DNA of 64,000 nt from Sphingopyxis microcysteis (GTDB lineage: Bacteria; Pseudomonadota; Alphaproteobacteria; Sphingomonadales; Sphingomonadaceae), in assembly GCF_012274265.1 (NCBI RefSeq), contig NZ_JAANYY010000002.1, positions 124,001 to 188,000 of the forward strand. Reading direction: 5' to 3'. The notes under the pieces were generated by a model. The model was not told the origin of the DNA and ran no database searches. It was given only the letters and a program-made list of their open reading frames with translations. A program made the position numbers and the translations under genes. Shown in pieces: positions 37,844-53,832 of the stretch (its first letter is position 1; every line of letters begins with the position of its first letter).

Positions 37844-37893
37844 TGCCAAATGGCATTAATCAAGTTATATGATGCCATATGGAGAAATGCCAT
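37844..37893 (+). promoter_or_regulatory. Repeated operator of the toxin-antitoxin pair
   Basis: TGCCA-AA-TGGCA at 37844-37855, CCATATGG at 37875-37882 and ATGCCAT at 37872 and 37887 form a cluster of related inverted half-sites. It overlaps the ribosome site GGAG (37881-37884) and the antitoxin start. This is the expected position for autorepression by an Xre antitoxin. Confidence 0.6.
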
Positions 37894-38305
37894 GCTGGCT
37901 CTGCAACCCGTTGATACTGCCGTTACCGCCTTCCGTCCCGATCCGATTACTCAGGACGAGGCGGCGGCCATGTTCCGAGCAGTCCTCAATCTTTTCGGCA
38001 AATGGGAACTGACCGACGAGCAGGCGGCAACCCTGCTCGACATGCCGGTTCGATCTTATCGGCGCTGGAAGGCGGAAGGGCCGGGACGCGTCTCGCGCGA
38101 TGGGCGTGCTCGTCTCTCCAACCTCATGGGTATTCACAAGGCGCTCCGGATCATCTTCTCGGAGGCGACCCGTGGTTATGCCTGGATGAGGGCGGCCAAC
38201 GATGCGTTCGGTGGAGTGAGTGGCCTTGACGTGATGCTCGGAGGTGAGCTCACCGACATCATGCGGGTGCGTCGCTACCTCGACGCCGAGCGTGGTGGCT
38301 GGTGA
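37892..38305 (+). CDS. Xre/MbcA/ParS-family antitoxin
   Basis: A 137-aa antitoxin. ATG 37892 (MLALQPVDTAVTAFRP) has GGAG 7 bp upstream and was preferred to the in-frame ATG 37850 inside the operator. The N-terminal DNA-binding helices (EQAATLLDMPVRSYRRWKAEG) and C-terminal toxin-binding domain (FSEATRGYAWMRAANDAFGGVSGLDVMLGGELTDIMRVRRYLDAERGGW) match antitoxins paired with RES toxins. The gene overlaps the RES toxin by 4 bp (GTGA), which couples translation. Confidence 0.92.
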   Translation: MLALQPVDTAVTAFRPDPITQDEAAAMFRAVLNLFGKWELTDEQAATLLDMPVRSYRRWKAEGPGRVSRDGRARLSNLMGIHKALRIIFSEATRGYAWMRAANDAFGGVSGLDVMLGGELTDIMRVRRYLDAERGGW

Positions 38306-39036
38306 GCGGAGCGGCGGATATCCGCGTTTCTAGAGTCCAGTGGAAGGACGCTGCTCGGATCATCCGCAGCGCCTTTCCGCCGATCGATCTGTTCGAAGAC
38401 ATCGCTGATCCCGCCGACTGGCCACTGCTGATCTCGGCAGAGCAGAAGACCAATCCTCGCATCATGGCGACTATTGGTAACCTCGACCTCGTTCCGGTTG
38501 ACCGGCGCGTCGGCGGCAACGGGGCCTCTTACCTCATGGCGCCATTCACCCACGTCAGCACTGACCGGCCGAGCCGCTTCACCGATGGCAGCTACGGCGT
38601 GCTCTACGTTGGCGACCGGTTCGAAACTGCACTGTTCGAGACGATCCACCACCATGCCCGCTTCATGGCGCGAACCAAGGAATCGCCTGGCTGGACCTCG
38701 CAGTTCCGGGAAATCGTCATGTCAGTCGATGCAGACTTGCATGATCTCCGAACTCTGGCGGGGGAGCCGGTCCCGGAGCTCGATCCTGACAGCTACGCCG
38801 CATCTCAAACGGTCGCGCGGCAGCTCAGGGGCGCGGGATCGAACGGGATTGCCTACCCGAGCATCCGGCATCCTGGTGGGGAATGCGTCGCGCTCTTCTA
38901 CCCAGACTGCGCGTCGAACCCCCTACAGGGGCGGCACCTCGACTATCACTGGGATGGCGCGCGGGTTGACCTCGTGCGTGATGGCGGATCGGGAGCGGTT
39001 TTCCGTATCGTCGATTTGCCGCCCGATCCCGTCTGA
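38302..39036 (+). CDS. RES-domain toxin
   Basis: A 244-aa RES-family toxin, a fold related to ADP-ribosyltransferases; family members such as MbcT destroy cellular NAD+. Conserved features are a GSYGVLYVGDRFETALFETIHH segment holding the RES Tyr/Glu region and YPSIRHPGGECVALFYPD near the C-terminus with the conserved Ser. It starts at GTG 38302, overlapping the antitoxin stop. Role: addiction of the element or abortive defence. Confidence 0.92.
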   Translation: MSGAADIRVSRVQWKDAARIIRSAFPPIDLFEDIADPADWPLLISAEQKTNPRIMATIGNLDLVPVDRRVGGNGASYLMAPFTHVSTDRPSRFTDGSYGVLYVGDRFETALFETIHHHARFMARTKESPGWTSQFREIVMSVDADLHDLRTLAGEPVPELDPDSYAASQTVARQLRGAGSNGIAYPSIRHPGGECVALFYPDCASNPLQGRHLDYHWDGARVDLVRDGGSGAVFRIVDLPPDPV

Positions 39037-39101
39037 CAGCATGAGTCGGGCTTCCGGCCGAGTGCTGTAGGTTCTCCGAGCACAGTGTCCGGCCAGCAAA
39101 C

Positions 39102-39614
39102 TCAAGTCTGCGAACCAGCCTTCACGAGTTCATGAAGGGCTTTGTCCGGCGAAACCGGGCCCTTGTACAGCGGGCTACACGGTTTCTCCGCTAGCTTGGC
39201 GGAAATCGCCAGGAGGTCATCATTATCGCCCTTTTTATAGGCATAGGCGGCCAGCCAGAACTCGGCCTGGCGAACAAACTCATTGAGGATGCCCACGACG
39301 CTCCGGTTCGCAGTCTTTGCGTACTGGACCTTGTCCATCTGCCAGACTTCCTGAGCGATGAATTCGGATGGCACTCGGTGCTCTTTGAGAACGAGGGCCA
39401 ATTGTTTGGGAAATCGTCGAGAGAGCGTCGCAGCAGGCGACATCTGCATGAGCACTGGAAGCAGCGTGCGCTCGGAAATCAGCAATGCCACCTGCGGTTT
39501 CCAGAACATTACGGTGGCCCACCAGTTTCCATGGGCCGTATCGCTTTGCCCGGGCGCAGCGATATCCGGTTTGATTCGATCAAGCAGCTTCTTGGTGCAA
39601 TGGAGGTGGAACAT
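39102..39614 (-). CDS. DUF6933-like protein
   Basis: A 170-aa cytosolic protein beginning MFHLHCTKKLLDRI. The pattern HCT-K-LL...WWATVMFW...LLISERTLLPVL...KTANRSVVGILNEFV matches the DUF6933 family, whose function is unknown. Members often lie beside regulators or toxin-like genes. It is on the opposite strand, between the RES toxin and the WYL regulator. Confidence 0.7.
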   Translation of the reverse strand: MFHLHCTKKLLDRIKPDIAAPGQSDTAHGNWWATVMFWKPQVALLISERTLLPVLMQMSPAATLSRRFPKQLALVLKEHRVPSEFIAQEVWQMDKVQYAKTANRSVVGILNEFVRQAEFWLAAYAYKKGDNDDLLAISAKLAEKPCSPLYKGPVSPDKALHELVKAGSQT

Positions 39615-39797
39615 GCTGGCGAATGATAGTGTTCGCTGCTGAGCGAGTCCATTGACGCTACAGGACTCGCAGCTGGAATAGCAATCGCCGCCGACTTAGG
39701 AGTCGCAGAAAGGCCCTCTCTGTGCCTCTAATCGCTGCTCTCTGTTCAGAGCGACGCTGTGGCTATCGACTACAGTTATCGGATTCTCTGAAGGGAA

Positions 39798-40691
39798 TTA
39801 TCGCGATGTCCGCTCGAGAACGCGTCGCCTAGCTTCGGCCTTAGCACTGTTGATCGCTTCCTGGACTTCGGCAAGATTATGCAGGCTAATCTGGGCGCGA
39901 GCCGGCGGAAGATCGGTAAGGTCGAGGTTCATCCGTTTTATGAAGTAGAAGGCCATTGAGAGCCGAACTTCGATTTCCCGTCGCCCGCCGTCGAGTGCAT
40001 AATCTCGTTGGATAGCGAGGCTCTGCTCTTCCGTCAGCCCGGGATGGGGGCGCAGATCAAGTTTTATGGTGTTGCTCCATTCCACGTCCTCGGCCGGATC
40101 GAAGTCAGCCGGGGGGCCGGGACGGATTTGATCGATGCGGGTGAGCACGAAGTCGCGGAAGTCCCCCCGATCGCAGGCCCATGCTCGCACGTGCCAACGA
40201 TACCCGTCGAAAGCCAGAGCGTGCGGGGCGATTTGTCGTACACGGGAATTCGTCAGGGACTGGTAACGCACTTCCACGCAGTGCCGCTTCCGGATCGCCT
40301 CCAAGACCATCCTCAGGCAGTCCGCATCGACATGGCGGACGATGTCGGGCGTGATCCCTATAGCGGGTATGTCGCGAAACCACACCTCGCGGCGCGGCAG
40401 GGCACCGGAAAGGAATGCACGCAATTGGAGCAGCAGACGGTCGGCAGAAGCCTTCAGGAAGGAGAGCTTGATGTCGGGCGTGGGTCTGAACGACCTGTTG
40501 GTTGCATCGTACTCAATATTGCCTCCCGCCAGTTCACGGTAGCGCCGGAGGTCGACCGATGCCTGGGGAGTGGAAATCTCAAACGTGTCCTCCAAGTCAC
40601 TGCGATTGAGCGCCCCCTCCCAAAAAAGCTTCCATTCGATGAACTCGAAACGGCGGTTCTGCGTCCACGGTCGCTTTTCGTCCACAGGCAT
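39798..40691 (-). CDS. capW: WYL-domain transcription regulator (CapW/BrxR-like)
   Basis: A 297-aa regulator. ATG 40691 (MPVDEKRPWTQNRRFEFIEWKLFWEG) was chosen because AGGAAC lies upstream and the first longer ATG would place the operator inside the gene. N-terminal winged HTH (NRSDLEDTFEISTPQASVDLRRYRELAGGNIEYD), then the WYL domain (CVEVRYQSLTNSRVRQIAPHALAFDGYRWHVRAWA) and a WCX extension. This layout is that of BrxR/CapW repressors controlling BREX and CBASS systems. It is divergent from the CD-NTase operon, whose promoter contains a palindrome likely bound by this protein. Confidence 0.9.
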   Translation of the reverse strand: MPVDEKRPWTQNRRFEFIEWKLFWEGALNRSDLEDTFEISTPQASVDLRRYRELAGGNIEYDATNRSFRPTPDIKLSFLKASADRLLLQLRAFLSGALPRREVWFRDIPAIGITPDIVRHVDADCLRMVLEAIRKRHCVEVRYQSLTNSRVRQIAPHALAFDGYRWHVRAWACDRGDFRDFVLTRIDQIRPGPPADFDPAEDVEWSNTIKLDLRPHPGLTEEQSLAIQRDYALDGGRREIEVRLSMAFYFIKRMNLDLTDLPPARAQISLHNLAEVQEAINSAKAEARRRVLERTSR

Positions 40692-40704
40692 GGGGTATAG
40701 TTCC

Positions 40705-40733
40705 TTGACGGGTATTGTTACGATACCCATATT
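40705..40733 (+). promoter_or_regulatory. CBASS operon promoter with embedded operator
   Basis: TTGACG (40705-40710) and CATATT (40728-40733) with exact 17-bp spacing. The palindrome GGGTAT-N7-ATACCC (40710-40728) fills the spacer, so a bound repressor would block RNA polymerase. It lies between the WYL regulator start (40691) and CD-NTase start (40811). Found by eye; the transcription start is not mapped. Confidence 0.65.
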
Positions 40734-40810
40734 GTTTTTAGCGGGTCGACTGACGAGTCGCGCATTTGACTGTCCCCGTCAAGGACGGAGGGCTTCCAGG
40801 AGACGAATCG

Positions 40811-41776
40811 ATGAGCCGTGACCACGTCGGACATCGCGATATTGTGCGCTTTGCCGAGGAACGCGTGAACCTCCCGCAAGACAAGGCGAACGATTATCGC
40901 GCGCAGGCGCGTCGCTTGCGCGACAAACTTGCCAACTACGTGGACGAACATCCCGACTTCACGCTCCGCAAGATGATGTTGTCGGGTAGCCTGGCGAAGG
41001 GCACCGCGCTCCGTTCGCTTAACGATATTGACGTCGCCTGCTACATCAGCGGAACCGACGCGCCTACCTCGGTGGCCGCCCTGCTGACCTATCTCGCCGA
41101 GCGGCTACGCAAGGCCTTCCCGAATTTCGAGCCGGATCAGGTGAAGCCGCAGACTTACTCGGTGACCGTCTCGTTCCGTGGATCAGGACTCGACGTCGAT
41201 GTAGTGCCGATCCTCTATGACGGCGATGCGAACTGGTATGGCAACCTGGTGAGTCAGGAGGACGGGTCGTTCCTCAAGACCAGCATCCCGCTACACCTCG
41301 ACTTCGCGGGTAAGCGCAAGAATGCTCAGGAGAAGCATTTTGCGCAGGTCGTCCGCCTCGTGAAGTTCTGGGCCAAGAAGCAGAAGCAGGAACGGCACGA
41401 CTTCCGCTTCAAGTCGTTCATGATCGAGTTGATCATGGCTAAGCTATGCGACGACGGGCTGGACCTGTCCGACTACCCGGAGGCCCTGCAGCACTTCTTC
41501 TCTTACGTGGCGCGCAGCGGACTGCGGGACCGGATCGCCTTCTCGGACTACTACCCCCTTTCGAGTATCGGCCAATTCAACGATCCCGTGCGGATCATCG
41601 ATCCAGTGAATGCCGATAACAACGTGTCCAGGCTCTACACGAACGCAAACATCGACGACATCGTCGATGCCGCGCTTGATGCCGGCGACGCCATCGACGC
41701 CGCCCTGGCAGCACCTAACAAGCAACTGACCGTCGGCTACTGGCAAAAGGTCTTCGGCTCCACGTTCCAGGCTTGA
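40811..41776 (+). CDS. CD-NTase (cGAS/DncV-like nucleotidyltransferase) of a CBASS locus
   Basis: A 321-aa nucleotidyltransferase expected to make a cyclic or linear oligonucleotide alarm signal on infection. The catalytic site is intact: GS at 59-60 in MMLSGSLAKGTALRSLNDIDVACYI, DxD as Asp72/Asp74, and a third acidic residue at Asp128 or Asp130 (GLDVDVVPIL). The C-terminal helical lobe has FWAKKQKQERHDFRFKSFMIELIMAKL. Start ATG 40811 follows AGGAGA, beyond an upstream in-frame ATG. The HORMA/TRIP13-like neighbours suggest clade C/D, type III CBASS; the signal nucleotide is unknown. Confidence 0.93.
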   Translation: MSRDHVGHRDIVRFAEERVNLPQDKANDYRAQARRLRDKLANYVDEHPDFTLRKMMLSGSLAKGTALRSLNDIDVACYISGTDAPTSVAALLTYLAERLRKAFPNFEPDQVKPQTYSVTVSFRGSGLDVDVVPILYDGDANWYGNLVSQEDGSFLKTSIPLHLDFAGKRKNAQEKHFAQVVRLVKFWAKKQKQERHDFRFKSFMIELIMAKLCDDGLDLSDYPEALQHFFSYVARSGLRDRIAFSDYYPLSSIGQFNDPVRIIDPVNADNNVSRLYTNANIDDIVDAALDAGDAIDAALAAPNKQLTVGYWQKVFGSTFQA

Positions 41777-41784
41777 GGTCCGCG

Positions 41785-42297
41785 ATGTCCAGCTACACTT
41801 ACACCGAGAGCACGACGTTCACGATAACCCACGCCCGCCACATAGCGGCAAAGATCGCGACTGACCTCAAGCGTATCCAGCGTCTCTACGGGCGGCCGTC
41901 GGATCGTGAAATCGCCGACTATGAAGCCGAAGCCATCGCAATGATGAAGGCCGGATACCTGTCATCGGTTACCTATGGCTTCAAGCGTGACGGCTCGTGG
42001 ATCGAGCCGACGTTGAAGTACGCTGCCCGCGATCTCGCTGGCGGTGCAGCGAACGATGACGACCCTGGCAGGATCCGTCCCGGCAAGGACGTGTCCGGTG
42101 CATCGTTTACCAGCTTCATGACCTACACCGACGCCTTCTGGAATCTGTCGCCTGCCGAACGGGATAGCTTCAAGGGCAACCTCCCCTTCCAGAGAAGCAG
42201 TGGTACCGAACCCCCGATCAATGGCTATTTGCAATCGGACCGCACCTATTCTTCGGGCGGTCGTGCGCTCGATCGCTCGAGCGTGAGGAATTACTGA
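41785..42297 (+). CDS. cap7: HORMA-like CBASS activator (Cap7-type)
   Basis: A 170-aa protein starting at ATG 41785, with GAGGT 5 bp upstream, just after the CD-NTase stop. MSSYTYTESTTFTITHARHI and the central YGFKRDGSWIEPTLKYA strand pattern resemble bacterial HORMA family 1 proteins, which in type III CBASS bind peptides of an invader and activate the CD-NTase. The C-terminus RTYSSGGRALDRSSVRNY resembles the tail that acts as a closure motif in E. coli MS115-1 HORMA. The assignment is by position and pattern, without alignment. Confidence 0.8.
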   Translation: MSSYTYTESTTFTITHARHIAAKIATDLKRIQRLYGRPSDREIADYEAEAIAMMKAGYLSSVTYGFKRDGSWIEPTLKYAARDLAGGAANDDDPGRIRPGKDVSGASFTSFMTYTDAFWNLSPAERDSFKGNLPFQRSSGTEPPINGYLQSDRTYSSGGRALDRSSVRNY

Positions 42298-43244
42298 TGC
42301 AGAACATGCCCGGCCTAGACGACCTTTTCGAACGTCGTCAGACCTACCCGGACTTTGAGCCGCAGGAACGTCTCGCGCGTCTCGTTGGTCTCGATGACCA
42401 GAAGTCCCGGCTCGCCAAGATCCTCGGTCTCCTCGTGAACCCGCAAGGGTTGGAGCGGTGGGCGACGAGCTTTCATGCAGCGGAAGCTCGGCCGCTGCTG
42501 GACGTTGTGCTACGGCGCCCGCCCCTAGTCGTGCTGGCCGGTGACGTTGGTTCCGGAAAGACGGAGTTGGCCGAGACGATCGGCGATGCGGTGGCTCGGC
42601 AGGAGGACATCGAAATCACGCTCTACCCGCTCAGCCTCGCGACGCGAGGCCATGGAAGGGTCGGCGAGATGACCCAGCTCCTGGCGGCCGCATTCGAGCA
42701 CACAGTGCAAGCTGCTAGCCGGCTGAAGTCGGGGGATAGATCGAAGGGCGGCATCATCCTGCTGGTCGACGAGGCCGACGCGCTGGCGCAGTCGCGCGAG
42801 GCAGCACAGATGCACCACGAGGACCGTGCTGGCGTTAACGCCTTCATCAGGGGCATCGACCGGCTGGCCAACCTGCGGCTCCCCGCCGCGGTGATCATGT
42901 GCACCAACCGCCTCAACGCGCTTGATCCTGCCGTGCGACGCCGTGCGGCGGACATCATGTCCTTTATGCGCCCGAACGAAGTCCAACGCCGCCACATTCT
43001 GTCGCTACGCCTCAGTCCGCTCGGTGTGAGCCCCACTGAGATTGAGGCGCTCGTGGCGGCGACCGGCGCGCGCGACGACGCACCAGGTTTCACCTTTTCG
43101 GATCTTGCTCAGCGACTGCTACCCGCGATCGCACTGGATGCCTACCCGGATAGGCCGATCCGGGGCGAACGGGCGCTGGAGATTGCCGAAGCCATGACGG
43201 CGACGCCGAAGTTCCGCGACGAGGTCGGAGGGACTGTGCGATGA
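42297..43244 (+). CDS. cap6: TRIP13/Pch2-like AAA+ ATPase (Cap6-type)
   Basis: A 315-aa AAA+ remodeller expected to unfold HORMA and switch the CD-NTase off. Walker A is GDVGSGKT at 82-89, Walker B IILLVDEAD at 153-161, sensor 1 MCTN at 201-204, and arginines RRR at 214-216 follow. The pore-loop-like segment ATRGHGRVGEMTQLL and ADIMSFMRPNEVQRRHIL fit the TRIP13 style. The ATG overlaps the HORMA stop by one base (TGATG) and its end overlaps the next gene by 4 bp, so translation of the three is coupled. Confidence 0.88.
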   Translation: MQNMPGLDDLFERRQTYPDFEPQERLARLVGLDDQKSRLAKILGLLVNPQGLERWATSFHAAEARPLLDVVLRRPPLVVLAGDVGSGKTELAETIGDAVARQEDIEITLYPLSLATRGHGRVGEMTQLLAAAFEHTVQAASRLKSGDRSKGGIILLVDEADALAQSREAAQMHHEDRAGVNAFIRGIDRLANLRLPAAVIMCTNRLNALDPAVRRRAADIMSFMRPNEVQRRHILSLRLSPLGVSPTEIEALVAATGARDDAPGFTFSDLAQRLLPAIALDAYPDRPIRGERALEIAEAMTATPKFRDEVGGTVR

Positions 43245-43969
43245 ACTGGTCGATCCAGATCCTTCTCTCGGAGTTGCACGACGAGATCCAAGAAAAGCTC
43301 GGCCGTGCCCGCAGGTCCTTCGGGCATCCTGGAACAAAGGGCGATGCGAGCGAGCAGGTCTGGCTGGAATTGCTGAATACCTATTTGCCTCAGCGGTACC
43401 AGGCGACATCGGCTCACGTGGTCGACAGCGTGGGCTCGTTCAGCGATCAGATCGATGTGGTCGTGTTCGATCGCCAATATTCCCCCTTCATCTTCAAATT
43501 CCAAGGCCAGACTGTCATCCCGGCTGAAAGCGTCTACGCGGTCTTCGAGGCGAAGCAGTCGATCAACGCAGAGCAGGTTGCTTACGCGAGGCAGAAGGTA
43601 GCAAGCGTTCGAGCGCTGCACAGGACGAGCCTTCCCATTCCCCATGCAGGCGGAACCTATCCGGCCAAGCCTCTCCAGCACATAATTGGGGGGATGCTCA
43701 CGCTCGAGAGCGATTGGAAGCCCGGCTTGGGTGATCCGCTTATCAAGGCCTTAGCGGAAGAGAACGTTGGCGGTCGGTTAGACCTGGGGTGTGTCGCTGC
43801 GCACGGCATCTTCTCTTGCGATGATGATGGATGCGGGATGTTCACGCTGATGAGTAAGCCGGCGACAGCTTTCCTCCTCGAGCTGATCGCGAGGCTCCAG
43901 GAGAAGGCCACCGTGCCGATGATCGACGTGAGGGCCTATGCCCGCTGGCTCGATGTCGACGTGGCCTAG
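43241..43969 (+). CDS. DUF6602 protein with PD-(D/E)XK-like residues, putative effector
   Basis: A 242-aa protein. SDQIDVVVFDRQYSPFIF and VYAVFEAKQSI place Asp72, Glu103 and Lys105 as in the catalytic core (D...E-x-K) of restriction-endonuclease-like folds, preceded by a helix with Glu38. This matches DUF6602, a family of unknown role. ATG overlaps the ATPase stop as ATGA. In type III CBASS the gene after TRIP13 is usually the effector (for example NucC), so this is the first effector candidate. Nuclease activity is inferred, and metal ligands should be verified. Confidence 0.75.
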   Translation: MNWSIQILLSELHDEIQEKLGRARRSFGHPGTKGDASEQVWLELLNTYLPQRYQATSAHVVDSVGSFSDQIDVVVFDRQYSPFIFKFQGQTVIPAESVYAVFEAKQSINAEQVAYARQKVASVRALHRTSLPIPHAGGTYPAKPLQHIIGGMLTLESDWKPGLGDPLIKALAEENVGGRLDLGCVAAHGIFSCDDDGCGMFTLMSKPATAFLLELIARLQEKATVPMIDVRAYARWLDVDVA

Positions 43970-43996
43970 TGGTGGCACTTGGAGCAGGGGGCGTTA

Positions 43997-45451
43997 ATGC
44001 CGAAGACCATATTGATATTCTCGGACGGCACTGGTCAGATCGGCGGTCTTCGCCCCGATCAGCGATTGTCCAACGTCTATAAGATGTATCGGTCGATGCG
44101 ACCGGGCCCGGACTCGCCGATAAGCCCCAAGGAACAGGTCGCGTTCTATGATCCCGGTCTGGGGGCAGGAGAGATCGGAGGCCTAACATTCAGACGAGTC
44201 CGCAACGTCCTCGCCGCCGCTGTTGGGACCGGCATCGATGAGAATGTGATCGACTGCTACGCGGCCGTGATCGCGAGATATGAGCTGGGCGATCGCATCT
44301 GCATCTTCGGCTTCAGCCGAGGGGCTTACACGGCGCGCTCGCTCGCCAACGTCCTGAACCTGTGCGGCGTGCCGACGCAAGACGCTGCCGGCGGCCCCGT
44401 CCCGCGCCACGGACCTGAGCTGCGGGCCATCGCCTCGGAGGGTGTGCGCAAGGTATACAATCACGGGGCCGGCGCAAAGCGCGAACGTTACGAGGCGGAG
44501 CGGGAGACGCTCGCCGCCCGCTTCCGTGCCAAATACGGTTCGGAGGCAACGGGTCAGGATGGCGAAGGTCAGGGGAACGTGCAGCCGGAATTCGTCGGGG
44601 TGTTTGACACGGTGGCCGCGCTCGGTAGCCGGGCCGCTACGACACTCGCCGCCATAGGCATGGCAGCGCTGATCGGCCTGACCTGGCTGGTCGCCGGCGT
44701 CGTGCCCTGGTGGGTGACGGCGCTCTTGGGCCTGCTGCCCGCCTCGGCTGCGTACTGGTTCGCCACGTCGCTCTGGTCACAGGTCAAGTTCTTCGCCAAC
44801 GAAACGACCTTCAGGCGCAGCAAGTGGGATCCTAGAGGTTGGCTGTCATTGATTAGGCACATGCATGTCGCGTGGTGGAGTGGCCGACACTACGATCGCT
44901 ATGTCGACAGGGAGATCCCCTATCTTAGGCATGCTCTCGCGATCGACGAGGACCGCGCGAAGTTTCCGCGGGTGGCTTGGGGGCGTCCCGCTGACGTTAC
45001 GTGGAATGAGCAGAGGGGACGTCCCGATTGGCTGGTGCAGGCGTGGTTTGCGGGTAACCATTCCGACATCGGCGGCAGCTATCCGGAAGAGGAGTCCCGC
45101 CTGTCCGATATCGCGTTGCGGTGGATGGTTGAGGAGTTGAAGCATGCGATGGGCGACGCCATCACGGTGCTGGATGATCGCCTCGTGACTTCGCCGGATC
45201 CGCTCGGCCTCCAGCACAGCGAGCGGACGGCGATGCTGAACTCGCAACCGGCGCTGCTCCGGAAGCTAACCTTTAACCGGCTGGTCTGGAGCTTGGCGAA
45301 GCGTGAGATCCATCCTGAAGCCATGCTCCACCCCACAGTGCTTGAGCGACTGGAGGCTGTCCAGGTCCCCCAAATGGGTAAGGTGGCGCCTTATCGGCCG
45401 GAAAGCCTGCGCAAGCACACGCTCGCCAGCCACCTGTACGATGAAGGGTGA
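43997..45451 (+). CDS. DUF2235/Tle1-like alpha/beta-hydrolase with membrane hairpin
   Basis: A 484-aa hydrolase. Start ATG 43997 follows GGAG; upstream TTG 43979 is less likely. FSDGTGQIGG is near the N-terminus. The nucleophile elbow is G-F-S107-R-G, the acid is probably Asp204 (GVFDTVAAL), and the base His355 (WFAGNHSDIGGSYPEE). Between Asp204 and His355 lie two membrane helices at about 213-235 and 237-258. The family includes T6SS phospholipases Tle1. Here it is placed in a CBASS operon, suggesting a membrane-damaging phospholipase effector. No T6SS genes are nearby. Confidence 0.86.
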   Translation: MPKTILIFSDGTGQIGGLRPDQRLSNVYKMYRSMRPGPDSPISPKEQVAFYDPGLGAGEIGGLTFRRVRNVLAAAVGTGIDENVIDCYAAVIARYELGDRICIFGFSRGAYTARSLANVLNLCGVPTQDAAGGPVPRHGPELRAIASEGVRKVYNHGAGAKRERYEAERETLAARFRAKYGSEATGQDGEGQGNVQPEFVGVFDTVAALGSRAATTLAAIGMAALIGLTWLVAGVVPWWVTALLGLLPASAAYWFATSLWSQVKFFANETTFRRSKWDPRGWLSLIRHMHVAWWSGRHYDRYVDREIPYLRHALAIDEDRAKFPRVAWGRPADVTWNEQRGRPDWLVQAWFAGNHSDIGGSYPEEESRLSDIALRWMVEELKHAMGDAITVLDDRLVTSPDPLGLQHSERTAMLNSQPALLRKLTFNRLVWSLAKREIHPEAMLHPTVLERLEAVQVPQMGKVAPYRPESLRKHTLASHLYDEG

Positions 45452-45456
45452 TTGCG

Positions 45457-46305
45457 ATGAGGACGATCTGGATGATCGCGACAATGGCGGCTGCTGTCCC
45501 TGCGGCGGCGAGCGCTAGGGACGCCGAGCTGCATACATTCCATTGTCTCCACGGTTGTCCGGTGGGAGCTCCCGGTACGAACGACGTCGTCGTACGCGAA
45601 ATCTACACGCTCTCGTCGAACGATCTGACCAAAATGGCGGACTGGGTCGCCTATCGCGTTACCAAAGAATCGATCGGACAATCCGGTGACCGCGACTGGC
45701 GCGCTGACCCATGGCTGGACGATGATGAGACTTTGGCGCCTGCCGCGTATGACATGGCCAGCGGAAAGCTGCACATCGATCGCGGTCATCAGGCGCCTCT
45801 TGCTTCCTTCTCAGGAACGCCGTCGGCGGCCGACACCAATATCCTGTCGAACATTACGCCACAGAGTTCGGCCCTGAACCAGGGGCCTTGGGTGCGTCTT
45901 GAGGACCGGGAACGCGAGATGGCCAAACGCCTCGGGGTGCCCGTCTACGTCCTGACGGGCCCGCTGTATGAGCGGATGATGCGACCACTCCCGAACGGCG
46001 GCGATTACCAGCGGGTGCCATCCGGATACTGGAAGGTGGTAGCGCTCGGCGATGGACGTGCGACGGCGTTCGTCTTTGACCAAGCCGCCTCGCGTGGAGA
46101 CGACGTCTGTGCGGCGAGAGTGTCCATCCGTCACGTCGAGTTGCGCAGCCGGCTCAGGCTTTTCCCGAACGCGACGAATGCACTGATGCCTCTCGATCTC
46201 GAACTCGGATGCAGCGAACAGGCGGTCATTGATCCAGCACCGTCGGTGATACCCGCCGAGAAGCGCTCCCTCCGGCGGCGCAGGGTCGAGGGGCCAGTTG
46301 ACTAG
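45457..46305 (+). CDS. Exported DNA/RNA non-specific endonuclease (NUC1 family)
   Basis: A 282-aa nuclease. ATG 45457 (or GTG 45448, overlapping the previous stop) gives a signal peptide, MRTIWMIATMAAAVPAAASA, with cleavage near residue 20. The beta-beta-alpha-metal signature DRGH is at 108-111 (catalytic His111), then NITPQSSALNQGPW with the metal-binding Asn. It reads as a periplasmic or secreted enzyme that degrades any DNA or RNA. Its place as the last gene of the CBASS operon is unusual. Confidence 0.9.
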   Translation: MRTIWMIATMAAAVPAAASARDAELHTFHCLHGCPVGAPGTNDVVVREIYTLSSNDLTKMADWVAYRVTKESIGQSGDRDWRADPWLDDDETLAPAAYDMASGKLHIDRGHQAPLASFSGTPSAADTNILSNITPQSSALNQGPWVRLEDREREMAKRLGVPVYVLTGPLYERMMRPLPNGGDYQRVPSGYWKVVALGDGRATAFVFDQAASRGDDVCAARVSIRHVELRSRLRLFPNATNALMPLDLELGCSEQAVIDPAPSVIPAEKRSLRRRRVEGPVD

Positions 46306-46357
46306 GTTGGGATCAGCGGGGTCGCGACAATCGCTCGATTATGCGAGCGCAGCATAA

Positions 46358-48658
46358 TCACGAGGGGCCGGCGACTGCGGCAACAAGCGTGGGATGGAGT
46401 GCCAGGCGGGTTTCTTGATCACCGTTAATGATCGCCGCGAGATACTGCCGCTTATAACCCGTGTCGAAAATGTACTTGGGCGCTGTTCCATCCAGTACCC
46501 CGACGCTCCCGTTCCACAGCATCACATCGATCAACTTGGCCAGATCGTCTGGATCATGGATCCGCTTCGCCGCGAGATAGCGCAACTTGGCAACGGTCAG
46601 ATCTTCGCGCGCCTGCAATATCTCGAATAGCAGGGAGGCGCCATCCTTGACCAAATCGGAAATCTCGCGGTCGAGGTCTTCGAGCACCTGCCAGCCTAGT
46701 TCACGCAGCGCCACCCGATAGTCGCCTTCTTCGATCTGAAGGCGATTGAACGTGACGGCCCGGCGTCGAGCAGTTTCGAACAACCGGATCAGGTAACGCG
46801 GACGCATCATGCTACCGTCGATCAGGTAATCCATGACTGGAACCCCATCAACCATATCCACCGACGCACGCGCCCAAGTCTTGGTCCAGGCTTCCTCGAG
46901 ATGCGGAACGCTGGCCTGCAGTCGCTGTTCGAACAAGACCTTGAGCAGTGCGCGATCGCCCCACTCGAGGCTTTGCACCGCAAGCTTGCCGTAATCGGCC
47001 ATGCCGCGGATGAGAAACTCGTAAACATCCGAACGAACAAAGATGGCCCAGCGAAATTCGAGATTTTTCCTCCGGAACTTGCGGGCGATCTCCTGCATTG
47101 ATTCGGCCAACCCTACGACGATCAACGCGTCATCGTCAGTAAACCCGCCCGGCGTCCAAAACCGATCGAGATTGTCGAACAGGAAGAACACGAAACCCTT
47201 CAGGCGCAAATAATCCATGACTCCGTCGCGCAGCTGGCGCAGGTCATGCCCGTAAATCGCCTCCAGCACCTTGGATGACGCCAGCTGACCGATCTCGCCT
47301 TCACCTAGCGTACTAGCCTTAAAGCGGTCGACGATATTCTCGGACAAGCGCCTGAGGCGCTCGGAAAAATCGCCCGTGCCAGTATCGACTCGCGCATCGA
47401 ACAGCGCCTGCAGCGTCCGGTAACCAGGCAGTAGACGATCGTCGCGCAGCGAACGCTGTTCATCCTTTTCTAGCAGCTTGTAAGCAATTTCCAGCCACAG
47501 AACATATTCCCAAAAGGCGGCAACCACCTCCTTGCGGGTTCCGAAACTCAACTTATCGAGGATGAACTCCTTCATCTTAATCAGTTGGTGCCCGTCTGGT
47601 GTCAGATCGATGACGATGTTTTCCTTGTTGGCGCGGGTACGATCTCTAGCCTGGAGAAAGACTGCGGTCTTTCCGCTCCCCTTGCGCCCAACCAGCAAAT
47701 TTGCGGTGCCTTCGAGAGTCCGTCGATACCCATCGGTTTGTAGGAAATGATCACCCAATGTGGCGGCTTCGTTCTCCGCGACCGGATCCCCACACGTCAA
47801 CAACTCCAGTAGGCGCTCGTGGTGCGGTTTCACCACCACAAAGTCGTTCTGGGCGTCCGCAGCGCGATTCCGGAACTCCCCAATCATCTTGTCGAGGTCA
47901 GAAAGGTTGAAGAACCGGTCTGCTTGATCCTGGAGATCAAGCGGGAGCGCCATCGATTCGTGCGCGATCAGCAGCGCGGGAATGTTGCGTCCTCGGGCGA
48001 CGCCGTAGATGAACGCCGCTCGTTGATTATTCCGCACCGATTGTTCGTCGGTGCCGTCCATCCAGAACGTTACCACTCCAAATGAGCACGCCGCATGTTC
48101 GTAAGCCTCACTCGCGTTGAGACGGCTGATCTCGCTCGGATTGAAATTGCGGAAGCGCACGCGCGCGATCTTCTTGATCGCGCTAACCACACGGCCATTG
48201 ACATCGCCGGAACCAGGCCGTTGCAAGACAAATAGAGGTTGGTCTTTGTTACGCGGAACTTGTGTCCAGCTTGTTGTCTCGTTCTTGCGCGCAAGGATCT
48301 TAGCAAGGGCCGGCTGTTGGTCGTAGGCATCGTAGCCGAGCGTATCGAGCAACCCGACATTCTTCACGTCCTGAAAAGAACTATGCGAAGAGCGGATCAG
48401 CCTTACCGGCTTCCCGAGGCCAATCGCATACCCCAACTCGTAAGTCACATTGGCATTCACTTGAGAGATGTCGGCCACGAACGCGTCCGCGTTCTCGATC
48501 CAACTTTCGACCGATTGCGCAATCGGTGAACCGGACGTGTCCTGCTGGGACCATGCGGTGACAGTACGCGCAGCTGTAGAAGCTGCTTTGGCTGCCCCCT
48601 CAATGATCTGACTGTGGTAAGAGTTGCCCGAAGCGTAGGCGATGAAGACCGATGTCAC
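46358..48658 (-). CDS. TIR/nucleosyltransferase-like and P-loop ATPase protein
   Basis: A 766-aa protein from GTG 48658 (AAGGAG about 10 bp upstream; the longer frame has no ribosome site). Residues 1-100 (VTSVFIAYASGN...ADAFVADISQVNANVTYELGYAIGLGKPVRLI) read like a TIR or nucleoside 2-deoxyribosyltransferase-type NAD/nucleotide-handling domain. A second related segment is at about 190-235 (VVTFWMDGTDEQSVRNNQRAAFIYGVARGRNIPALLI). P-loop GRKGSGKT is at about 324-331, followed by a long ATPase resembling the Sll1717/FunZ family. Likely an infection-sensing NTPase-effector; this is inferred. It converges on the CBASS operon. Confidence 0.75.
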   Translation of the reverse strand: MTSVFIAYASGNSYHSQIIEGAAKAASTAARTVTAWSQQDTSGSPIAQSVESWIENADAFVADISQVNANVTYELGYAIGLGKPVRLIRSSHSSFQDVKNVGLLDTLGYDAYDQQPALAKILARKNETTSWTQVPRNKDQPLFVLQRPGSGDVNGRVVSAIKKIARVRFRNFNPSEISRLNASEAYEHAACSFGVVTFWMDGTDEQSVRNNQRAAFIYGVARGRNIPALLIAHESMALPLDLQDQADRFFNLSDLDKMIGEFRNRAADAQNDFVVVKPHHERLLELLTCGDPVAENEAATLGDHFLQTDGYRRTLEGTANLLVGRKGSGKTAVFLQARDRTRANKENIVIDLTPDGHQLIKMKEFILDKLSFGTRKEVVAAFWEYVLWLEIAYKLLEKDEQRSLRDDRLLPGYRTLQALFDARVDTGTGDFSERLRRLSENIVDRFKASTLGEGEIGQLASSKVLEAIYGHDLRQLRDGVMDYLRLKGFVFFLFDNLDRFWTPGGFTDDDALIVVGLAESMQEIARKFRRKNLEFRWAIFVRSDVYEFLIRGMADYGKLAVQSLEWGDRALLKVLFEQRLQASVPHLEEAWTKTWARASVDMVDGVPVMDYLIDGSMMRPRYLIRLFETARRRAVTFNRLQIEEGDYRVALRELGWQVLEDLDREISDLVKDGASLLFEILQAREDLTVAKLRYLAAKRIHDPDDLAKLIDVMLWNGSVGVLDGTAPKYIFDTGYKRQYLAAIINGDQETRLALHPTLVAAVAGPS

Positions 48659-49043
48659 CCTGCTCTCCTTCAGCGTCAGCCTAGTGAGAGCTTCACCCCT
48701 GAGCAACCGCCCGCAAATCATTTCTCCACATTGACTTAGCGGAGAACCTAATTGGCACAATGCGCTTCAGGAGCAGTCGATGCCATGAACGAGAAAGGTG
48801 ACTTAGCCTTGCTAAAAAATCTTATTCCCGCGCGGGTTTTTCGAATAACGAACCAACCGCGGCTCGGGTCTGATGCGGGCCTAGGAGACTAATCGGTCAT
48901 TCCACAACCATGGGCATTCGACACTGCCCTTCGCTATCGGGAGATGTGCTGCGAACGCACTAGAGGGGAGTGGGCTTTGCCCTGATTAAGCCATATGGGC
49001 GTCGATGGTCGACGCGCCGGGCTCACAATCAGGAGTGTGTCCC
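48659..49043. other. Intergenic region upstream of parB
   Basis: 385 bp divergent between the TIR-ATPase and parB. It contains AT-richer sequence around 48810-48850 and the hairpin leader at 48962-48986. No gene was found. Confidence 0.5.
48962..48986 (+). promoter_or_regulatory. Hairpin leader upstream of parB
   Basis: AGAGGGGAGTGGGC-TTT-GCCC then TGAT, with the same layout as the leader before the helicase gene at 33530. A TCAGGAG ribosome site at 49029-49035 follows. Confidence 0.5.
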
Positions 49044-51032
49044 ATGATCAAGTCGATCCCGCTGAACAAGCTCGTCCAGTCTCCCCGCAATGTCCGCCGT
49101 CACAGTGACCCCGCTGCCGATGCCGAGCTCAAGGCCAGCATCGCAGCCCATGGGCTGCTGCAGAACCTTATCGTCTGGCCGGCCGCGAAGGGTAAGTTCG
49201 AGGTCGAAGCCGGCGAACGCCGCCGCCGCGCGATGCTGGCGCTCGCTTACGACAAGATCCTCGCCCGCGATCACGAAGTCACGTGCCTCGTGCTCGAGGA
49301 CAGCGCCGAAGTCGCGGTCGAGACCAGCCTCGCAGAAAACTTTCATCGCCTCGCCATGAACCCAGCCGATGAGGCCCAGGCCTTTGCCGCGCTCGTGGCA
49401 GGCGGTGCGACTGTTGAGGATGTTGCGCGCCGCTTCGGTCTGACCATTCGCTTCGTTGATGGCCGGCTGCGTCTCGCGAACCTTGCGCCTGTGGTGTTTG
49501 AGGCACTGGCATCCGGGGAAATCACCCTCGATATCGCCAAGGCCTTCGGCGCGACCTCGGACCAGGACATCCAGGCCCGGGTGTTCGAGCAGGTTTCCTC
49601 GGCCTACTACGCACCCAATCCTGACAGCATCCGGCGCATGGTCCTCTCGGGCACTGTCCGGGGCAGCGATCCGCGCGCCCGTCTCGTTGGCCGCGATGCC
49701 TACATTGCCGCGGGCGGCCGGATCGAGCGTGAGCTGTTCGACAACGACGACAGCGAATCCTGGGTCGATTTTGCGCTGCTCGAAAGCCTTGCCGCCGCGA
49801 AGATGGAAGAGCAGGCCAAAGCTCTCGCCGCCGAGCAGGGTTTTGCCTGGGTCAAGCCGACGCTCGATCCCTATGCCAGCCACGATCTGGTCGAAGGGCT
49901 GGTCCGGCTTCCTGCCGAACCGGCGCCATTGACCGACGCAGAATTGGCGAGGCTCGACGAACTCGATGCCTCCTATGACGAGCATGCGGCGATCCTCGAG
50001 GATGAGGACAGTGCCGAGGAGGCGGTGGCAGCCGCCGAAGCGGCGATCGAGGCGATAGAACGCGAATGCCAGGAAATCCGAGCTCGCCCGCCCGTCATCG
50101 CAGCTGACCTCAAGGCCGAAGCAGGTATGATCCTGGTGCTATCGCGCGATGGCACGCCGGTTCTCCAGCCGGTGTTCTATGGCGAGCGTCAGGCTGAACC
50201 CGCAGAACCCGATGACGGGATCGAAGTCGTTGCAGGCGAAGAAGGTTCGGACAGGCGTCGGACCACCTTGTCGAAACGTCTGGTTGACGAACTTGCGATG
50301 CAGCGCCGCGATGTTCTGGCACTTCACGTTGCATCCGATCCCGGGCTGGCGCTCGACATCATGATCTTCACCCTCGCCGATGCCGATACCCACGATTGGT
50401 GGGCGCGCCCTTCGACCACGCTACGCGCGCCAGTTCCGGCAGGCCCGATCATCGGCTTCGAAGCCAAGGATGCGCCGGCGAGCAGCGCGCTTGCTGAGTT
50501 CAGATCCGGCCTCGACGAAAGCTGGCGTGCCGGTTCCGAAGCGACGTCCCGCTTCGATCTCTTCCGTGCGCTGCCCGATGACAGCCGCGCGGCCTGGCTG
50601 GGCTATGTCGTCGCCCGTTCGCTCGAGGCAAGCCTCAACATGGCGGGAGAGCGTCAGCTGCCGTTCCAGGACCATCTCGGCAGCCTGATCGGTATCGACA
50701 TGGCGCAGTGGTGGCGACCGACAGCAGTCAACTACTTCGACCGGGTATCGAAGCAGGTGATCCTCGACGCGCTGACCGATGTCGGCGGCATCGAGCTCTC
50801 CTCGCGCTTTGCCTCGGTCAAAAAAGGTGATCTCGCGATGAGCGCCGAGCGCGTATTCGCCGGCACCTACATCACCGAGGTCGAGGTTCGCGAGAAGGCC
50901 CTGGCCTGGGTGCCTGAGGTCATGCGCTTCGCTCGCCCTACGCCGGAGGCGGGCGAAGCCGAGATCGACGCAAGCGACGCTGAGCCTGGTGTCGACGGCG
51001 AAATTCATACCCCCCGCGAGCTGGCCGCCTGA
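49044..51032 (+). CDS. ParB/Spo0J-family protein
   Basis: A 662-aa protein with an N-terminal ParB domain (IPLNKLVQSPRNVRRHSDPAADAELKASIAAHGLLQNLIV; FEVEAGERRRRAMLAL; VEVALAENF-like segment) and a central HTH (VARRFGLTIRFVDGRLRLANL). The long acidic C-terminal half (DEHAAILEDEDSAEEAVAAAEAAIEAIERE) is typical of large ParB-like proteins on plasmids and ICEs. It may bind sites on the element for segregation or transcription control. No ParA is adjacent. Start ATG 49044 with TCAGGAG upstream. Confidence 0.9.
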   Translation: MIKSIPLNKLVQSPRNVRRHSDPAADAELKASIAAHGLLQNLIVWPAAKGKFEVEAGERRRRAMLALAYDKILARDHEVTCLVLEDSAEVAVETSLAENFHRLAMNPADEAQAFAALVAGGATVEDVARRFGLTIRFVDGRLRLANLAPVVFEALASGEITLDIAKAFGATSDQDIQARVFEQVSSAYYAPNPDSIRRMVLSGTVRGSDPRARLVGRDAYIAAGGRIERELFDNDDSESWVDFALLESLAAAKMEEQAKALAAEQGFAWVKPTLDPYASHDLVEGLVRLPAEPAPLTDAELARLDELDASYDEHAAILEDEDSAEEAVAAAEAAIEAIERECQEIRARPPVIAADLKAEAGMILVLSRDGTPVLQPVFYGERQAEPAEPDDGIEVVAGEEGSDRRRTTLSKRLVDELAMQRRDVLALHVASDPGLALDIMIFTLADADTHDWWARPSTTLRAPVPAGPIIGFEAKDAPASSALAEFRSGLDESWRAGSEATSRFDLFRALPDDSRAAWLGYVVARSLEASLNMAGERQLPFQDHLGSLIGIDMAQWWRPTAVNYFDRVSKQVILDALTDVGGIELSSRFASVKKGDLAMSAERVFAGTYITEVEVREKALAWVPEVMRFARPTPEAGEAEIDASDAEPGVDGEIHTPRELAA

Positions 51033-51068
51033 CCTCCTCCTGACAGGCTCGGCCACTCGTACCTCGAG

Positions 51069-51107
51069 AAGCGGTCCTTCGGCTTACGCCGGAGGGCCGC
51101 TTCCTTT
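51069..51107 (+). terminator. Rho-independent terminator after parB
   Basis: A 15-bp stem (51069-51083 with 51088-51102, two G-U pairs) with a TTAC loop, followed by a CCTTTTT tract. It starts 37 bp after the parB stop. Confidence 0.9.
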
Positions 51108-51199
51108 TTGGAAGCAGAGCAGAGGGGGCCCGTGAACCTGTGGCACTGACCGGCGAACCCGTCGCCGACTGTCCGGATGCCTCAATCAGGAGACCCATC

Positions 51200-52141
51200 A
51201 TGGCCTATCGCAAGGGGCAGAGCAGCGGCTTGTCGCCCGCCGCCCGTATCACCCAGGAAATCATCGCCCGTCTGGAAGCAGGCACGAAGCCATGGATCAA
51301 GCCGTGGCGCGGTGTCCCGGTCTCCCGGCCCTTGCGGGCCTGTGGGATTCCGTACCGGGGCATGAACGTGTTCTGGCTTTGGATGGTCGCCGACATGTGC
51401 GGCTACGCCTCGCCATTCTGGATGACCTACAATCAGGCAAAGTCGCTCGGGGCCCAGGTCCGCAAGGGCGAGAAGTCGACCATCGCGATCTTCTACAAGA
51501 GCTACACCAAAGAGGTCGAAGCGCCCGATACCGGCGAAAAGACCGATGAAGCCCGCCGGGTGCTGAAAGCCTATCCGGTCTTCAATGCCGATCAGGTCGA
51601 AGGGCTGCCTGAGCGCTTCCATCCTGCCGCGACGTTGGAACTGGTCGAGCCTGAAGGGCGCGCGTCCGAGCTCGACGCCTTCTTTGCGGCCATCCCCGTC
51701 AATCTGCGTCACCAGGGCTGCGAAGCCTATTACGAGCCAAGTGCGGATCGCGTCACGATGCCGCCGGTCAGCCTGTTCAATGGCTTCGATCACTATTACG
51801 CCACGCTCGCGCACGAGCTGTCGCACTGGACCGGCCATGTCAGCCGCCTGGGACGCGATCTCAAGAACCGCTTCGGCACGGCGGCCTATGCCGCTGAGGA
51901 ACTGGTCGCGGAACTCTCCAGCGCGATGCTGGGCGCCGAGCTGGGCTTGCCGGTCACGCACCTCGACAGCCACGCAAGCTATATCGAGCATTGGCTCAAG
52001 CTTCTGAAAGACGATGACCGCGCCATCCTGACCGCTGCAGCAAAGGCCGAAGAGTCATCGAGCCTGCTCCTGAAGCTCGGCGGGAGGGCGATGCCTGAAC
52101 AGTTTGACGACGCGTCAGACGACGCGGCGCTTGCGGCCTGA
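51200..52141 (+). CDS. ArdC-like antirestriction protein
   Basis: A 313-aa protein with an N-terminal ssDNA-binding ArdC domain (ITQEIIARLEAGTKPWIKPW; PYRGMNVFWLWM; SLGAQVRKGEKSTIAIFYK) and a C-terminal zincin-like metallopeptidase domain with HELSH at 205-209 (LAHELSHWTGH). ArdC proteins protect incoming single-stranded conjugative DNA from restriction. ATG 51200 has TCAGGAG at 51186-51192. It lies in the same orientation as parB, after its terminator, so it should have its own promoter. Confidence 0.92.
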   Translation: MAYRKGQSSGLSPAARITQEIIARLEAGTKPWIKPWRGVPVSRPLRACGIPYRGMNVFWLWMVADMCGYASPFWMTYNQAKSLGAQVRKGEKSTIAIFYKSYTKEVEAPDTGEKTDEARRVLKAYPVFNADQVEGLPERFHPAATLELVEPEGRASELDAFFAAIPVNLRHQGCEAYYEPSADRVTMPPVSLFNGFDHYYATLAHELSHWTGHVSRLGRDLKNRFGTAAYAAEELVAELSSAMLGAELGLPVTHLDSHASYIEHWLKLLKDDDRAILTAAAKAEESSSLLLKLGGRAMPEQFDDASDDAALAA

Positions 52142-52152
52142 GGGAGGATGCT

Positions 52153-52575
52153 ATGGGCCGATCAGTCAGCTATCCCAGCGGCGCAATCGTCGCATTCACG
52201 GTTCTCGAGGTCGAAGCCGAGGACGACTGGGAATTCGAGTATGAATGGCTGCGTGACGATCTGTGCGAGCGGGCCGCCAAAGCCTTCCCGTCGCTCATCC
52301 CACATGACGGATGGCGCGGCCGGGAAGACCGGATCCTCATGCGCAATGCCTATGCCGATTTCGGCGTATCGGTCTACGGCTCACTTGTGGCTGTCTGGAT
52401 CGTCGAACGCGATGACGGTGCCTATTGGGACGCCGATTGGCGCACGGCTCGCTCACCGCGGGCACGGCGCTGGCTATCCCAGATTGCATCCCGCTTCGAT
52501 GCCATGTTTGGCGACTATGAATGCCTCGGGCACATGTCGAACGGCGAGGGGGTCTACACCAAGCGCGCAGCTTGA
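52153..52575 (+). CDS. Conserved acidic hypothetical protein
   Basis: A 140-aa protein rich in Trp, Asp and Glu (DDWEFEYEWLRDDLCERAAKAFPSLIPHDGWRGREDRILMRN). It starts 11 bp after the ArdC stop with a GGAGGATGCT site, so it is probably co-transcribed. No domain recognised. Acidic small partners of this kind often mimic DNA or act on restriction systems, but here that is speculation. Confidence 0.7.
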   Translation: MGRSVSYPSGAIVAFTVLEVEAEDDWEFEYEWLRDDLCERAAKAFPSLIPHDGWRGREDRILMRNAYADFGVSVYGSLVAVWIVERDDGAYWDADWRTARSPRARRWLSQIASRFDAMFGDYECLGHMSNGEGVYTKRAA

Positions 52576-52878
52576 GGTCTGCAGCTTGGTAAGACGCAGC
52601 GGTTTGGATTGCCGTCCCTGACTGAGCTTTGCCGGCCGGTCTTGGTCTGTCGCCATGCGAGAGAGGCCCTGGGCCAGCCGCCAGCCTTGCGCAACCCGGC
52701 TTGGGCGGGCCCGTGTTGGCCTTCGCCCTTCAGGCTTAAGGCCTGCCCGCGCCAGCCCGCCAAGCCGGGTTTCCCCTGACGGGTGCGCAATCCTGCCTGA
52801 ATGCTGGCCCTGACGGGCTCTCGCTGGCGCAGCCATGAATGGGTGCGTCGGCCTTACGCCAGTCAGGAGGATATCCCA
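52576..52878. other. GC-rich spacer with long inverted repeat
   Basis: 303 bp with no recognisable gene. An inverted repeat of about 17 bp (52693-52710 and 52755-52771, one bulged G) encloses a 44-nt loop. The stretch GCCCTGACGGG near 52808 echoes CCTGACGGG at 52775. TCAGGAGG (52863-52870) is the ribosome site of the next gene. Confidence 0.6.
52693..52771. repeat. Inverted repeat in the leader of the DUF2493 gene
   Basis: The left arm AACCCGGCTTGGGCGGGC pairs with right arm GCCCGCCAAGCCGGGTT, one base unpaired. Could be a terminator-like or attenuator structure; no U-tract follows. Confidence 0.7.
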
Positions 52879-53832
52879 ATGCACACGTCATTTGCCGACC
52901 AACTCGCCGGGCTCGATCTTGCCGGTTTCTCGATCGGAACCGCTCCCGTATCGACAAGCGATTTCCCGGTCCGGGAGGCGGTTGTCCAAACCCTCGAAGC
53001 GGTCTGGTCCGATCTTTTCGCCATGGTGTCCGGGACCGCTCTTGAAGCCGACGCCGAAGATCTTGGCTGGGCCTTCGTCAACATCTTCCACCGCTCTGCC
53101 GAACGCAAATCAACGGCTCTCGACCGCGCGACCGACGAAGTCCGCGCGCTAATTGCTACGGCCGATGGATCCGAGGTTCACACATATGAACTCGAGACCC
53201 AGGTCGAGCGGGCACAGTGTGCCGAGGGCGCGATGCTGGCGCTTGAAGAGATGCGCGAGGTCGCCGCAGCCCTGTACCTCAACGAGTTCGGTTCCTCCTG
53301 GAAGCCGGTCTCCAGTTCTCGCTTCAATCACAGCGTCATGCTGACTTCCGCACTCGTCGAAGGGCGCGACTTCCTGCGCGCCCGTGCCGAGGCCAAGCGC
53401 CGTGCGGCAGTGCCCGAAGGAACCCCTGTCGTGTTCGCTGGCGGGCGCACCCGTCATGGATGCGAAGACGATGCGCTGACCTTCGGCAACAATGTCTGGG
53501 CCACCCTCGACAAGGTTCGTGACCGCGTGCCCGACATGGTGCTCATCCATGGCGGCGACACCAAGGGCGTCGACCGCCTGGCATCGAGCTGGGCCGAACG
53601 GCGCGGCATCCCGCAGGTCACGTTCTCGCTCGACATGCGGCTCGGCGCTCGTGCCGGCTTCAAGCGCAACGAGAGGATGCTCTCGCTTGATCCGCGCTAC
53701 GTCATCGCCTTTCCGGGCAATGGCGTGCTCGAACGTCTGGTCATCGAAGCCAAGGCCCGGCGGATCACCGTTGTCGATCGCCGCGGGCCTCTCGGTACCA
53801 ATCCGAAGAACACTTCGGCCAGGACCGACTAA
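52879..53832 (+). CDS. DUF2493 (SLOG-related) protein
   Basis: A 317-aa protein starting at ATG 52879 after TCAGGAGG. The N-terminal ~170 residues are helical and unassigned. The C-terminal domain has VVFAGGRTRHGCEDDALTF and VLIHGGDTKGVDRLASSWAERRGI, matching DUF2493, a Rossmann-like fold related to YpsA/SLOG nucleotide-binding proteins. These may bind NAD, nucleotides or ADP-ribose. Widespread on sphingomonad plasmids and ICEs, with unknown function. Confidence 0.85.
   Translation: MHTSFADQLAGLDLAGFSIGTAPVSTSDFPVREAVVQTLEAVWSDLFAMVSGTALEADAEDLGWAFVNIFHRSAERKSTALDRATDEVRALIATADGSEVHTYELETQVERAQCAEGAMLALEEMREVAAALYLNEFGSSWKPVSSSRFNHSVMLTSALVEGRDFLRARAEAKRRAAVPEGTPVVFAGGRTRHGCEDDALTFGNNVWATLDKVRDRVPDMVLIHGGDTKGVDRLASSWAERRGIPQVTFSLDMRLGARAGFKRNERMLSLDPRYVIAFPGNGVLERLVIEAKARRITVVDRRGPLGTNPKNTSARTD

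Follow-up and report, generated by a model that had tools for sequence, protein, structure and literature searches.

DUF2235 and predicted exported nuclease genes at the end of a type III CBASS operon in Sphingopyxis microcysteis

The CBASS operon and its two last genes

The window analyzed here is a 64,000-nucleotide stretch of contig NZ_JAANYY010000002.1 from Sphingopyxis microcysteis. On its forward strand, the genes for CdnC, a HORMA protein, TRIP13, NucC, a DUF2235 protein and a nuclease follow one another in this order and form a compact operon with successive gaps of 8, -1, -4, 27, and 5 bp (Table 1). The nuclease gene is the last of the operon and starts 5 bp past the DUF2235 stop; a 20-bp gap in a second gene call corresponds to an internal start chosen by that gene caller.

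Table 1. Features of the operon and its upstream region (positions in the window)
Feature	Position	Strand	Evidence
WYL-domain regulator, CapW-like	39798..40730	-	PF13280 E 3.5e-14; divergent from cdnC
19-bp imperfect palindrome GGGTATTGTTACGATACCC, candidate CapW operator	40710..40728	+	sequence and pattern scan
CD-NTase CdnC	40811..41776	+	E. coli MS115-1 CdnC 6p80 E 1.3e-150, full-length; NF041116 over cut-off
HORMA protein (Cap7 type)	41785..42297	+	PF18138 E 3.1e-64; MS115-1 HORMA 6p8v E 3.5e-65
TRIP13-like AAA ATPase (Cap6 type)	42297..43244	+	PADLOC TRIP13 E 9.3e-133
NucC, second-messenger-activated endonuclease, CBASS effector	43241..43969	+	MS115-1 NucC 6p7o E 6.9e-100; PADLOC NucC effector E 7.6e-106
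DUF2235/Tle1-like alpha-beta hydrolase with two-helix hydrophobic insert	43997..45451	+	PF09994 E 3.2e-61
Serratia-type (Endonuclease_NS) nuclease, predicted exported	45457..46305	+	PF01223 E 7.8e-35; 1g8t E 1.1e-56
Signal-peptide-like leader MRTIWMIATMAAAVPAAASA	45457..45516	+	rule-based scoring; leader in all 24 homologues

The first four genes comprise a CdnC-type CD-NTase, the HORMA and TRIP13 regulators and, judged by its match, the effector NucC; for CdnC, HORMA, and NucC, the match to the solved E. coli MS115-1 protein spans the entire length. The window thus shares with the type III CBASS of that strain the order CdnC, HORMA, TRIP13, NucC, full-length matches of the four core proteins and the effector, whereas it differs by the addition of the DUF2235 and exported nuclease genes. 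By these matches, the type III CBASS is complete before the last two genes, which are not normal members of such systems. In nine CBASS loci on plasmids, whose HORMA genes are related, a NucC or SAVED effector comes last, and neither a DUF2235 nor a nuclease gene lies directly downstream of CBASS in any of the nine, nor in locus L077 (tblastn). An earlier sequence-only reading had called the nuclease the last CBASS gene, which holds for its position in the CBASS operon but not for its rank as a standard component, given that CBASS is complete with NucC.

The WYL-domain regulator occupies the position divergent from cdnC that has been described for CapW (PMC9122588). The palindrome adjoins a sigma-70-like promoter match at 40705-40733, upstream of cdnC (pattern scan), and its likeness to CapW-bound sites makes it a candidate CapW operator (PMC9122588). 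This promoter-like match is the sole one detected in 39700-46600, which is weak evidence from a pattern scan. Scan counts of internal promoters and terminators did not exceed those of shuffled sequences, and the scan says little on this point; no Rfam RNA was found in 39000-49000. Transcription of the nuclease gene apart from the operon, named in the sequence-only reading as a finding that would speak against it, is therefore indicated neither by the short gaps nor by the (weak) promoter scan.

Predicted properties of the nuclease and the hydrolase

The 282-aa nuclease product belongs to the Serratia-type Endonuclease_NS family, with the Serratia nuclease as its closest solved structure. It shares fold family, catalytic residues, disulphide cysteines and secretion leader with the extracellular nuclease of Serratia marcescens, but differs in being encoded last in a defence operon, after the gene for a membrane-linked hydrolase. 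The residues R79, D108, H111, N141, and E149 are invariant in 29 of 29 homologues, which thus share the DRGH motif together with the catalytic His, Asn, Glu, and Arg. His111 is the catalytic histidine of this motif, so that both the NUC1-type assignment and the catalytic residue proposed in the sequence-only reading are confirmed. The mature part is under purifying selection (dN/dS 0.078, window versus L010), and the leader evolves much faster (0.33 in the same comparison), although both values are rough as synonymous sites are near saturation. Two other origins were considered and rejected: direct orthology to EndoG, since the match to Serratia nuclease (E 1e-56) far exceeds that to EndoG (E about 1e-11), and a phage-borne gene, since a phage collection returned weak, partial matches only, along with two distant IMG/VR contigs.

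The leader of the nuclease scores 3.14 as a signal peptide with a rule-based scorer made for this analysis, and no signal-peptide candidate was found among the six operon mates scored. As about 17% of all called genes score 3 or higher, this value alone offers modest support. Stronger evidence for export comes from the homologues: all 24 sphingomonad sequences with a readable N-terminus possess a hydrophobic leader and an A-x-A-like site, with varying sequence and constant character, and the cysteines Cys30, Cys34, Cys218, and Cys252 are kept in 23–24 of 24 sphingomonad members. These four cysteines match by position the two disulphides of Serratia nuclease. Disulphides of Serratia-type nucleases need an oxidising compartment. 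Two disulphide bonds are hence predicted for the window protein, which is probably exported, and the signal peptide noted in the sequence-only reading is supported by the homologues and, more modestly, by the score. As the genome encodes a type II secretion system (T2SS) pseudopilin, the final location of the nuclease may be either the periplasm or the medium. Activation by a cyclic nucleotide is unlikely because of this location outside the cytoplasm; the protein contains no known nucleotide-binding domain.

In the DUF2235 protein, S107, D204, and H355 are invariant in 10 aligned sequences, and the surrounding blocks align with those of Tle1 (4o5p). At least two hydrophobic segments follow the GVFDTVA block in 31 of 31 DUF2235 homologues, and in a weak structure model (mean pLDDT 52.6) this insert forms two helices, 212-233 and 238-270; a comparison of the same model to PDB folds yielded no match below E 0.001. 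The protein is best described as a putative membrane-anchored, Tle1-like phospholipase, and lipids would be its predicted substrate. With Tle1-type phospholipase effectors of the type VI secretion system (T6SS; PF09994), it shares the catalytic domain and the Ser-Asp-His blocks, but it differs from them by the two-helix hydrophobic insert and the defence-operon setting. A role as T6SS cargo is unlikely and was rejected because the genome lacks TssB (no TssB/VipA match in a genome search). Functionally, the protein resembles CapV, a patatin-type CBASS phospholipase, in that a lipid hydrolase would serve as defence effector; the fold families are unrelated, however, and DUF2235 is added to NucC here and even to CapV in L014 and L058.

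The gene pair across sphingomonads

Nuclease homologues were gathered from family, genus and species genomes. In 11 loci (the window, L010, L011, L012, L014, L015, L016, L018, L019, L025, and L032), the nuclease gene lies directly behind a DUF2235 gene on the same strand, in some cases with a 4-bp overlap. A defence head is located directly upstream of the pair in 7 of these 11 loci, namely type III CBASS with NucC (window) or with Cap17 and an exonuclease (L012), type II CBASS with CapV (L014) or Cap5 (L016), an OLD-like ATPase (L010), and a helicase and DUF1883-TIR locus (the near-identical relatives L018 and L019). The latter head encodes an RNase_H_2/helicase protein (1111 aa), a 107-aa protein and a DUF1883-TIR protein (L018:2779-7424 and L019). 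L025 has a caspase head as well, but two genes on the opposite strand separate it from the pair, and it was left out of the operonic count. The nuclease is thus better grouped with the Tle1-like hydrolase encoded just before it, as an apparently portable pair located behind five or more other defence loci.

Variants of the arrangement exist as well. L028 shows the reverse gene order with a broken DUF2235 gene, in L013 the nuclease follows an OLD-like gene and an inverted DUF2235 gene is close by, and L058 and L076 contain CBASS genes and DUF2235 with the nuclease absent. In L076 (7729-10144), Cap5 and DUF2235 occur without a recognisable cyclase, which is probably a decayed type II CBASS. Six loci (L012:9705-10969, L014, L015, L018, L019, and L013) continue past the nuclease with a gene for a lipoprotein of about 296 aa, which has a lipobox at its start, and then one for a 123-aa protein; a seventh, L025, has the lipoprotein without the 123-aa protein. 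Neither protein has a Pfam or PADLOC match, and the structure model of the lipoprotein is weak (mean pLDDT 42.4). L011 is a contig labelled as an Actinomycetota MAG that carries sphingomonad-like DUF2235 and nuclease genes and has probably been mis-binned.

In the nuclease tree, the window and L010 fall into one starred group and eight of the remaining paired loci into another. The DUF2235 tree agrees with this topology, with L058 inside the starred group of the window. The trees thus place the pair in two or more lineages and show a turnover of head systems within each, so that the pair persists while its heads are exchanged. This recurrence bears on the main rival explanation, a general secreted nuclease for scavenging nucleic acids or phosphate or removing extracellular DNA, which would sit in the defence operon by chance and be read through. 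The T2SS pseudopilin makes secretion to the medium possible, and lone nuclease relatives without DUF2235 adjoin ordinary genes in about a dozen sphingomonad loci, including patatin-like proteins (L017, L095) and a PhoD-like phosphatase (L017). The family must therefore have some other role too. Against this explanation stands the recurrent direct pairing with DUF2235 behind unrelated heads in two or more lineages, often with overlapping genes. Chance adjacency has an expectation below 0.001 (a rough estimate from five family genomes holding both genes), as compared to at least three cases observed. We consider a general secreted nuclease rather unlikely, though a serious contender.

Much less probable is an independent defence or toxin module, in which DUF2235 and nuclease would merely cluster with CBASS in islands without functional coupling. 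Such clustering would agree with the many DUF2235 genes that stand alone (most DUF2235 relatives have no NUC1 neighbor) and with three of the nine plasmid CBASS loci (L112, L114, and L118), where another DUF2235 gene lies within about 6 kb upstream, outside the operon. In the window and in L012, however, the pair is part of one tight gene run with CBASS. PADLOC has no model for DUF2235 or the nuclease, and although all parts are known families, no description of the DUF2235-nuclease pair, or of CBASS with DUF2235/Tle1, was found in the part of the literature that was searched.

Possible modes of action and flanking genes

We tentatively favor a reading, at odds somewhat short of even, in which the last two genes represent a portable killing module that supplements an already complete CBASS. 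It draws on gene order, tight spacing, catalytic residues, leader, cysteines, purifying selection and recurrence of the pair, all as read from the DNA. The nuclease would be exported by its signal peptide and fold with disulphides in the periplasm, where the chromosome is out of reach. Once the defence head is activated or the resulting damage sensed, the membrane-anchored phospholipase would hydrolyze lipids and breach the inner membrane, so that the non-specific nuclease could meet the cytoplasm and degrade phage and host DNA and RNA. Abortive infection might thereby be completed even where a phage blocks NucC. The trigger is more likely a shared downstream cue than the binding of one specific cyclic nucleotide because the heads found with the pair signal through different second messengers or through none that is known. 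Redundancy speaks against the killing module, as NucC already destroys DNA, and so do the lone nuclease relatives and the majority of DUF2235 relatives that lack NUC1; yet since NucC cuts cytoplasmic DNA, a second nuclease outside would be useful mainly after loss of the barrier. A membrane-linked lipid hydrolase as direct partner suggests just such a sequence of breach and DNA destruction. The sequence-only reading had offered two mechanisms, destruction of entering phage DNA in the periplasm or of the host nucleoid after a breach of the inner membrane, of which the latter fits the pairing best.

The former gains no support from a lipid-hydrolase partner and appears quite improbable. The compartment would fit, and cleavage during injection is established for another envelope-linked defence nuclease, SNIPE (PMC13190303). 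Yet SNIPE is built differently: it resides in the inner membrane and exposes its GIY-YIG nuclease to the cytoplasm (PMC13190303). Many phages, moreover, inject through a channel, and attack on incoming DNA leaves both the partner hydrolase and the place in a late, abortive defence operon unexplained. Clean-up or kin protection, in which the nuclease would degrade nucleic acids set free outside the cell by lysis, including unpackaged phage genomes, is improbable too, if slightly less so. An exported, presumably disulphide-stabilised nuclease paired with a likely lytic enzyme would suit this role, and the Endonuclease_NS family is known for extracellular action, but packaged virions are not nuclease-sensitive and the benefit is doubtful.

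A broader extension of the killing module, by analogy, is that Alphaproteobacteria carry a portable, head-independent execution unit that works on an apoptosis-like principle, with an EndoG/NUC1-family nuclease held on the far side of the inner membrane until a phospholipase activated by defence admits it. We regard it as conceivable but on the unlikely side. In mitochondria, EndoG is confined by a membrane that becomes permeable during cell death and lets it out. The window protein and mitochondrial EndoG or yeast NUC1 share the Pfam family and, as an analogy, the idea of a membrane-held nuclease freed on permeabilisation, whereas the window protein is far nearer to Serratia nuclease and direct descent is not claimed. 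If correct, the mechanism would describe a defence effector with the cell compartment rather than a ligand as its safety catch, common to different alarm systems and serving as a back-up for phage-blocked CBASS, and a bacterial parallel to apoptotic nuclease release. Even if it is wrong, DUF2235, nuclease and lipoprotein would constitute a defined recurrent gene set without PADLOC models.

Further genes surround the operon. A convergent gene on the minus strand (46358-48721) ends 52 bp past the nuclease stop and encodes a Sll1717-family P-loop ATPase domain (NF047389, over cut-off) with an N-terminal stretch resembling nucleoside deoxyribosyltransferases; it is possibly another defence gene. 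Upstream, two genes on the plus strand (37850-39036) cluster with an Xre-like antitoxin and a RES-type toxin, a pair that adjoins a DUF2235 gene in L075 and in the Qipengyuania plasmid L111. The four genes at 49044-53832 reappear as a group in L071, which has a DUF2235 gene beside the same ParB-like gene, and this set resembles the backbone of a mobile element with a hot spot for cargo.
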